A stretch of 64,000 bases of DNA. Origin: Natrinema versiforme. GTDB lineage: Archaea > Halobacteriota > Halobacteria > Halobacteriales > Natrialbaceae. Position 1 is the first letter of the stretch. Each line of letters opens with the position of its first letter. This document shows, piece by piece, positions 44,460 to 45,272 of the stretch. Below the pieces are notes generated by a model. The model was not told the origin of the DNA, searched no databases, and saw only the letters and a list, made by a program, of their open reading frames with translations. A program made the translations under genes and the position numbers. The DNA lies in contig NZ_CP040330.1 of NCBI RefSeq assembly GCF_005576615.1, forward strand, positions 744,001 through 808,000. The letters are read 5' to 3'.

Positions 44460-45011
44460 TCACTCCGCGGCGTCCAGCGAATCCGTCTCGAACGCGCCTT
44501 CGTATTGTGCGAGCATGTCCCTGTAGCCCTGCTCGGCGAGGTCGTCGGTCTCCCGTAAGTCCGCGATCGGTGTCTCGGTCGCGTCGAGGCGCAGGTCGTT
44601 GTACGGCGGCTCGACGGCGTGGGACTCCGTCGTCTCGACGACCACCGCCGCGCTCTGAACCGACAGCTCCTCGCGCTTGTCCCCGCCCTCGAGGTCGCCG
44701 GCCGCCAGCGCGTCGATCAATCGCTTCGCGAGGGGTTCGGTGTCGACGTCTTCCGTGACCGCGGTCGGTCCGGTCGCGGGGTCCATCGTGCCGTGGACGG
44801 CGTTCGCCGCGTAGGCCTCGCTGACCGTCTCGAGGACGTCCTCGCCGGTCAGCATGTTGCCCGCGACGGTGTAGTGGTCGCCCTCGCGGTGGCCGTACTC
44901 GGCGACGCACTCCTCGCCCGAGAAGGCGAACGTCGACTCGCCGTCGACGCCGTGTAACTGCCGCTGGGGCGCGCCGTCGTCGGCGTTGAGCAGCGCCTCG
45001 AGCGCGTTCAT
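44460..45011 (-). CDS. DUF1028 protein, C-terminal part (split gene)
   Basis: 183 residues beginning MNALEALLNADDGAPQRQLHGVDGESTFAFSGEEC and containing YTVAGNMLTGEDVLETVSEAY and GDLEGGDKREELSVQSAAVVV, typical of the second two thirds of DUF1028 proteins. The first third is encoded by the ORF immediately upstream in the same frame; between them sits a palindromic insert (45006-45056) that supplies both a stop and this ATG. It may be expressed as a separate chain, or the locus may be a pseudogene. Confidence 0.75.
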   Translation of the reverse strand: MNALEALLNADDGAPQRQLHGVDGESTFAFSGEECVAEYGHREGDHYTVAGNMLTGEDVLETVSEAYAANAVHGTMDPATGPTAVTEDVDTEPLAKRLIDALAAGDLEGGDKREELSVQSAAVVVETTESHAVEPPYNDLRLDATETPIADLRETDDLAEQGYRDMLAQYEGAFETDSLDAAE

Positions 45012-45056
45012 CAGACTGCGTCTGATGGGCCGTCAGAACGCGGACGTTCTGACGAC
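45006..45056 (-). repeat. 51-bp double-hairpin insert splitting the DUF1028 gene
   Basis: Two adjacent perfect palindromes: CATCAGAC-TGC-GTCTGATG (45009-45027) and CGTCAGAACG-CGGA-CGTTCTGACG (45031-45054), three bases apart. Comparison with the family (DDGLAV-DD followed by ALEALLNAD) suggests that exactly 17 codons were inserted. The insert keeps frame but contains one TGA (45033-45035), and an ATG at 45009-45011 re-opens the frame. Confidence 0.7.
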
Positions 45057-45272
45057 GTCGTCGACGGCCAGTCCGTCGTCGATATACTCGATCCCGCGCG
45101 CGCCGAGGTCGACGTTGACCAGGCTCTGCGTGGCGACCGCCCCGCGGTCGCTGACGAACGGACAGAGCGTCCCGACGCCCGGCAACCGCGTGGTGACCGC
45201 GACGCCGAACCGGCGGTGACGGTCGCCGTCTTCGGTTTCGTACTCCTCGCGAACGCAGATGCTGAACGTCAT
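45033..45272 (-). CDS. DUF1028 protein, N-terminal part (split gene)
   Basis: 79 residues: MTFSICVREEYETEDGDRHRRFGVAVTTRLPGVGTLCPFVSDRGAVATQS and so on, the start of DUF1028 proteins, whose fold is of Ntn-hydrolase type. The family sequence runs to DDGLAVDD, then diverges into VVRTSAF and a TGA inside the palindromic insert. The remainder of the protein continues in the same frame after the insert. Confidence 0.75.
   Translation of the reverse strand: MTFSICVREEYETEDGDRHRRFGVAVTTRLPGVGTLCPFVSDRGAVATQSLVNVDLGARGIEYIDDGLAVDDVVRTSAF

Follow-up and report, generated by a model that had tools for sequence, protein, structure and literature searches.

Rickettsia palindromic elements (RPEs; Ogata 2000/2002) are short palindromic mobile DNAs that lie in frame in unrelated coding genes and are tolerated as added peptides, the first families being about 150 bp long, as described in two accounts (PMC10969869, PMC3733652). 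CGTC-tagged REP dimers are known from bacterial phyla, and have an unpaired CGTC motif at one end, stems of 8–9 bp, loops of 4–5 nt and a 3-nt tail fitting CCA (PMC3733652). In Haloquadratum walsbyi, the small mobile repeat SMR-A is about 110 bp long, has terminal inverted repeats, shows neither a transposase nor a target duplication, and uses palindromes near the ends of IS605-type elements as its insertion sites (PMC3119063). PATEs share near-terminal palindromes with an IS605-type transposon, and the terminal-only PATEs of 52 bp keep one 22-bp palindrome (PMC3119063). These are the nearest kinds to the 51-bp element that interrupts a DUF1028 gene of Natrinema versiforme, and the element fits the full definition of none of them.

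Like RPEs, the haloarchaeal element is inserted in frame in many unrelated coding genes (NAD-kinase-like, P-type ATPase, acetyl-CoA-synthetase-like, luciferase-like, ABC transporter and others). Compared by description, RPEs are bacterial and about 150 bp, whereas this element is archaeal, 51 bp long and made of two hairpins, and it differs further in its strong shared target and in the stop that it carries in one orientation. It resembles the CGTC REPs in its two hairpins of differing sequence, its intragenic copies and the lack of an associated transposase, and perhaps in a CGTC at its left junction. Over 29 distinct sites, this junction shows C (93%) followed by GTC or GTT; the C is flanking sequence, and the motif is partly paired in type I elements. 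The median stems of 9 and 8 bp (n=108 elements) agree with the 8–9 bp of the CGTC REPs, but the loop of hairpin 2 is 3 nt in 103/108 elements and that of hairpin 1 mostly 3 or 4 nt rather than 4–5 nt, the element ends in GAMC/GACG instead of the 3-nt CCA tail, and, unlike in CGTC REP dimers, the spacer is fixed at about GCC. With SMR-A and the PATEs it shares a haloarchaeal host and the lack of both a transposase and a target duplication. The 52-bp members, which lie in CCCGGCGTTTACGCC/GGG, a palindrome at the presumed right ends of IS elements, also seem to share the IS605-type palindrome sites of SMR-A, while the copy studied here is in a host gene. The length of about 110 bp and the terminal inverted repeats of SMR-A are replaced by 51 bp and internal hairpins with no outer repeats, and in-frame insertions in host genes are not reported for SMR-A or PATEs in the available part of their description (PMC3119063).

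Structure of the insert and of the interrupted gene

The window, i.e., the whole 64-kb stretch of contig NZ_CP040330.1 that was analysed, contains a DUF1028 gene on the minus strand (44460..45272), with its ATG at 45272 and its final stop at 44460. The 51-bp element lies within this gene at 45006..45056 on the minus strand, and the gene frame across it reads GLAVDD-VVRTSAF(stop)RPIRRSLMN-ALEALLNADD. Hairpin 1, CGTCAGAACG-TCCG-CGTTCTGACG (45031..45054, minus), is perfect, with arms of 10 bp (45031–45040 and 45045–45054) and a loop of 4 nt. It is separated by a GCC spacer (45028..45030, minus) from hairpin 2, CATCAGAC-GCA-GTCTGATG (45009..45027, minus), which is also perfect, with arms of 8 bp (45009–45016 and 45020–45027) and a loop of 3 nt. 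The in-frame TGA (45033..45035, minus) is located within the 3' arm of hairpin 1, which reaches 12 bp in RNA folding, and the ATG (45009..45011, minus), the final three bases of hairpin 2, is paired with the CAT of the 5' arm. The distance from the TGA (45035–45033) to the ATG (45011–45009) is 21 nt, and both are read on the minus strand, the earlier note having described them in plus-strand coordinates. No GGAGG or other Shine-Dalgarno sequence was found in the insert upstream of the ATG. The fold of the insert gave z = −3.6 in RNA folding. Neither hairpin pattern was found again in the 64 kb of the window, where shuffles expect 0.00–0.01 matches.

The TGA divides the gene into an N-terminal ORF of 79 aa (45033..45272, minus), which ends at the TGA of the element, and a C-terminal ORF of 183 aa (44460..45011, minus), which begins at its ATG. 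In profile searches, the two parts matched consecutive stretches of PF06267 (DUF1028), positions 1–69 with E 2.4e-15 and positions 65–193 with E 3.7e-33, respectively. In a MAFFT alignment with the uninterrupted copies of the genus, the insert stood opposite one gap, exactly 51 columns wide, in 16/16 copies, and no target duplication was seen against these relatives. Both halves are intact apart from the insert, and the same split without the palindrome was not seen at the DUF1028 site among the relatives. The proposal of the earlier note, that a miniature palindromic element made almost entirely of two perfect hairpins had landed in an intact gene with the frame kept in phase, is thus borne out by this gap and by the family found in other genomes.

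DUF1028 was not found in 12 genus-mates of the species, and the closest relative (G027, a draft genome) has an uninterrupted DUF1028 gene with a 2-bp frameshift in a GC repeat. The dN/dS of the window gene against its genus relatives was 0.15–0.23, with a background of 0.08–0.23, and no relaxation was seen. As a test of relaxed selection this ratio was uninformative for the window gene: values near the background leave the loss of function unproven, and the gene was either hit recently or is still functional. Another DUF1028 gene (G055:C1:2265739-2266665) appears to carry a partial duplication in frame, residues 71–132 of the query having matched twice.

A family of double hairpins in haloarchaea

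No close second copy of the element was found in the genome of N. versiforme (G000) by blastn of the region or by a further genome search, so the family is visible only across genomes. The search for the palindromes as a repeat family was therefore negative in the genome itself and positive among the relatives, and the view of a lone event, which the own-genome result had favoured, was overturned by the patterns across genomes and by a covariance model. A search with the hairpin pattern, together with an exact scan across species genomes, detected the same 51-bp element in trpB of Halopiger goleimassiliensis (G039), and the closest relative, G027, has a 51-bp element in a NAD-kinase-like gene in the opposite orientation. 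Scanning 125 genomes of the taxonomic family with the junction pattern TCTGAYGNNNCRTCAGA added the DUF1028 gene of another genus, a second NAD-kinase-like gene, two P-type ATPases and a HAD phosphatase.

A covariance model was built from 11 elements, and the window element matched it with E 2.3e-17, a value given by construction because the window copy was among the 11. The model matched 106/125 genomes of the taxonomic family, in 27/29 genera (E<=0.05), and 124/292 genomes across the class (E<=1e-6), both counts resting on E-values that the tool itself states to be rough. Among 122 distinct aligned matches, 91.5% of the cells pair as compared with 76% in shuffles, a figure that leans upward because the alignment is model-fitted and holds both strands of near-palindromic matches. 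In the same matches, compensatory (double) changes occur at 18/18 pairs, the number of double-changed cells being 336 as compared with 85 in the shuffles. A separate hairpin search gave 108 elements, in which 101 of the first stems and all of the second stems are free of mismatches with G-T allowed, and the first-stem arms comprise 54 different strings. The design is two adjacent hairpins with GCC or GGC between them.

Only double hairpins were kept as members, because single CRTCAGA...TCTGAYG matches take in unrelated repeats. A single hairpin at G000:C4:354994 was rejected on this ground, as were the 51-bp tandem repeats with CGTCAGA hairpins at L054 1181-1260 and L055 1220-1290, whose architecture is different. 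Rfam gave no match for the element up to E 1, and two scans of viral contigs for it were empty. The family of tiny mobile elements is apparently undescribed in the main texts of the open-access literature.

Target sequence and repeated sites

The flanks of 29 distinct sites gave the profile T(-8) C G. C G C/A C, insert, G C G. T, and the preferred target is close to TCGNCGMC-insert-GCGYTCG. By this profile, the target halves in the window are TCGACGAC upstream (45057..45064, minus) and GCGCTCGA downstream (44998..45005, minus). Near-identical elements are located at the same DUF1028 position in G000, G053, G054 and G095, at the same trpB position in G039 and G286, at the same position of a NAD-kinase-like gene in G027 and G055, and at the same P-type ATPase position in G051 and G055. 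The C part of the N. versiforme DUF1028 is closest to its own genus-mates (79–91% identity), and the DUF1028 of G095 is nearest to that of G096, with a dN of 0.055 as compared with 0.20 to the window copy. Since each of these two interrupted genes has its nearest match among the uninterrupted copies of its own genus, their sequences suggest that the site was probably hit repeatedly and independently, and the region of the element may alternatively have been passed on by recombination.

All the type I elements read in genes are in one codon phase, and both orientations occur. The open orientation reads HQTxSDGPSERxRSDD, and the stop orientation reads VVRTxAF(stop)RPIRRSLM. The lengths 51 and 48 prevail in intact coding hosts, and non-coding copies are 52, 46 or 58 bp long.

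Orientation and state of the host genes

The hosts of the open orientation are otherwise open over the stretch read. They are two NAD-kinase-like and two P-type ATPase genes, a luciferase-like oxidoreductase, an ABC transporter, two epimerase-like genes, an alcohol-dehydrogenase-like gene, a TrkA/PhoU-like gene and an acetyl-CoA-synthetase-like gene, the last in many genomes (host names from Pfam for four and by eye for the rest). In the stop orientation, the DUF1028 genes of G000 and G095 and the trpB of G039 are otherwise intact, and frameshifts or deletions are present in the DUF1028 genes of G053 and G054, the trpB of G286, the HAD gene of G051, a tnpB (L097) and an acetamidase gene (L125). 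Further lesions were thus counted in 6/9 stop-orientation hosts against 0/11 open-orientation hosts (Fisher p 0.002), in a small post hoc tally made by eye from which the YchF-like copies (L115, L155, L159) were excluded, as they look like fragments or duplicates.

G039 also has a further, intact gene with a TrpB-like score in a PALP search, so redundancy is possible there. Its interrupted trpB holds a second double hairpin, diverged and stop-free, a little upstream of the first (L051 4110-4170), so this gene was hit twice. The acetyl-CoA-synthetase-like gene has a 51-bp copy in frame (xRQTTSDEPSGSGGAGDD) in many genera (L110, L112, L114, L117, L118, L120, L131, L140, L142, L151, L152), probably an old insertion that was vertically inherited.

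Interpretation of the interrupted DUF1028 gene

The explanation that we favour, with a probability of roughly 0.77, is a mobile family without a transposase, of which one member recently entered a dispensable DUF1028 gene, in the stop orientation, and most likely inactivated it. The element inserts without target duplication at a preferred sequence near TCGNCGMC/GCGYTCG. In the GC-rich genes of haloarchaea this target holds a fixed codon phase (e.g. GAC-GCG-CTC-GAG), so that a 51-bp insert preserves the frame and the outcome is set by orientation alone, one orientation adding an open hydrophilic peptide and the other adding VVRTxAF, a stop, RPIRRSL and a new M. Of the three outcomes offered by the earlier note, the dead gene is the best supported, and inactivation is most likely, with the caveat that the DUF1028 copies of the window and of G095, like the G039 trpB, show no further damage; the split enzyme and readthrough are both unlikely.

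If ribosomes stopped at the TGA and re-initiated at the ATG of the element, the two halves could assemble into a two-chain enzyme. The frame is preserved, and neither half is damaged in G000 or in G095. The TGA and ATG belong to the element itself, as the earlier note supposed; they recur with type I insertions in the stop orientation. Termination-reinitiation is also described for haloarchaea, at overlapping gene pairs, in the available part of one study (PMC6728339). A translationally coupled pair, however, has an overlapping stop and start or an accessible start, whereas here the two are 21 nt apart without overlap, and the ATG is enclosed in the 8-bp stem. This predicted anatomy, with the TGA in hairpin 1, the ATG in hairpin 2 and no GGAGG upstream, argues against efficient re-initiation. 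In addition, the majority of the other stop-orientation hosts are decayed, and the DUF1028 gene is absent or frameshifted in relatives. The working pair of coupled ORFs envisaged earlier is improbable, and a tidy functional split is disfavoured by the frameshifts of the interrupted copies in G053, G054 and G286.

A broader reading, which we consider improbable as a whole, joins a class-wide, enzyme-less element that moves as a hairpin into a codon-phased target in either orientation with a stop form that is still decoded in the recently hit DUF1028 and H. goleimassiliensis trpB. As part of this reading, decoding would occur by readthrough, bypass or re-initiation.

Readthrough of the stop or ribosome bypassing, giving a protein of full length whether or not the 17 added residues are included, is quite improbable. 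The stop has a TGA-C context and is flanked by strong hairpins, and the length of the insert is near that of the 50-nt stretch bypassed by ribosomes in phage T4 gene 60. Matched take-off and landing codons, on the other hand, are not conserved: the codon GCG that follows the element is replaced by CCC in G053 and by GCT in G051, and a bypass element with matched codons was rejected because of this variation. The prevalence of 51 and 48 bp in coding hosts is as expected if the insert is translated and not skipped.

Template switching or strand slippage could have made the insert locally, as template switching can make perfect palindromes and the target duplication is absent, but near-identical 51-bp sequences, alike in spacer and architecture, occur in genes and families that are unrelated, which makes this origin very improbable. 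A sequencing or assembly error at the stop, conceivable where each species has one genome only, is negligible, as the same TGA occurs in independent assemblies of the DUF1028, trpB and HAD insertions.

Mobilisation and significance

Neither a transposition event, a mobilising enzyme nor a polymorphic strain was observed among the genomes examined. By analogy with IS200/IS605 elements, movement may proceed through a single-stranded hairpin intermediate, driven by some enzyme. PF01797 (Y1 transposase) was not matched in the element-bearing G039, G053 and G054, and 1/17 Y1 loci in other genomes had a nearby element match, a weak one, so a linked Y1 (IS200-type) transposase is unsupported as the mobiliser. 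In this respect the family differs from RAYT/REPIN systems, which are associated with a Y1 transposase. Members are also present in tnpB genes, as well as in the presumed IS right ends.

The family can be regarded as a haloarchaeal counterpart to the RPEs of Rickettsia, i.e., selfish DNA spreading in coding genes with the frame kept, with a target that can be recognised and an outcome, peptide insertion or knock-out, that follows simply from the orientation. It bears on the question, raised for the Haloquadratum small mobile repeats and the CGTC REPs, of which enzyme moves enzyme-less palindromes, and the many repeatedly hit sites make that question testable. For annotation, 'split' trpB, DUF1028 and similar haloarchaeal genes can be accounted for by the element.

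Several variants were observed besides. Many copies occupy one tnpB-like site, between DxNA and AxN (L080, L081, L084, L086-L089, L217-L219), where they read as VVRLRLTGSKIARDFAT and the 52-bp versions disrupt the frame. A 62-bp version closes a dnaK-like gene at its 3' end (L135, L136, L137, L141, L161), giving the last residues and the stop (VDENDED, stop). Multicopy palindromic repeats carrying the double hairpin were found in G136 (L236-L244) and G339 (L245-L251), and in G339 the double hairpin is nested within CCACGTTTTTGC...GCAAAAAGTGG inverted repeats.
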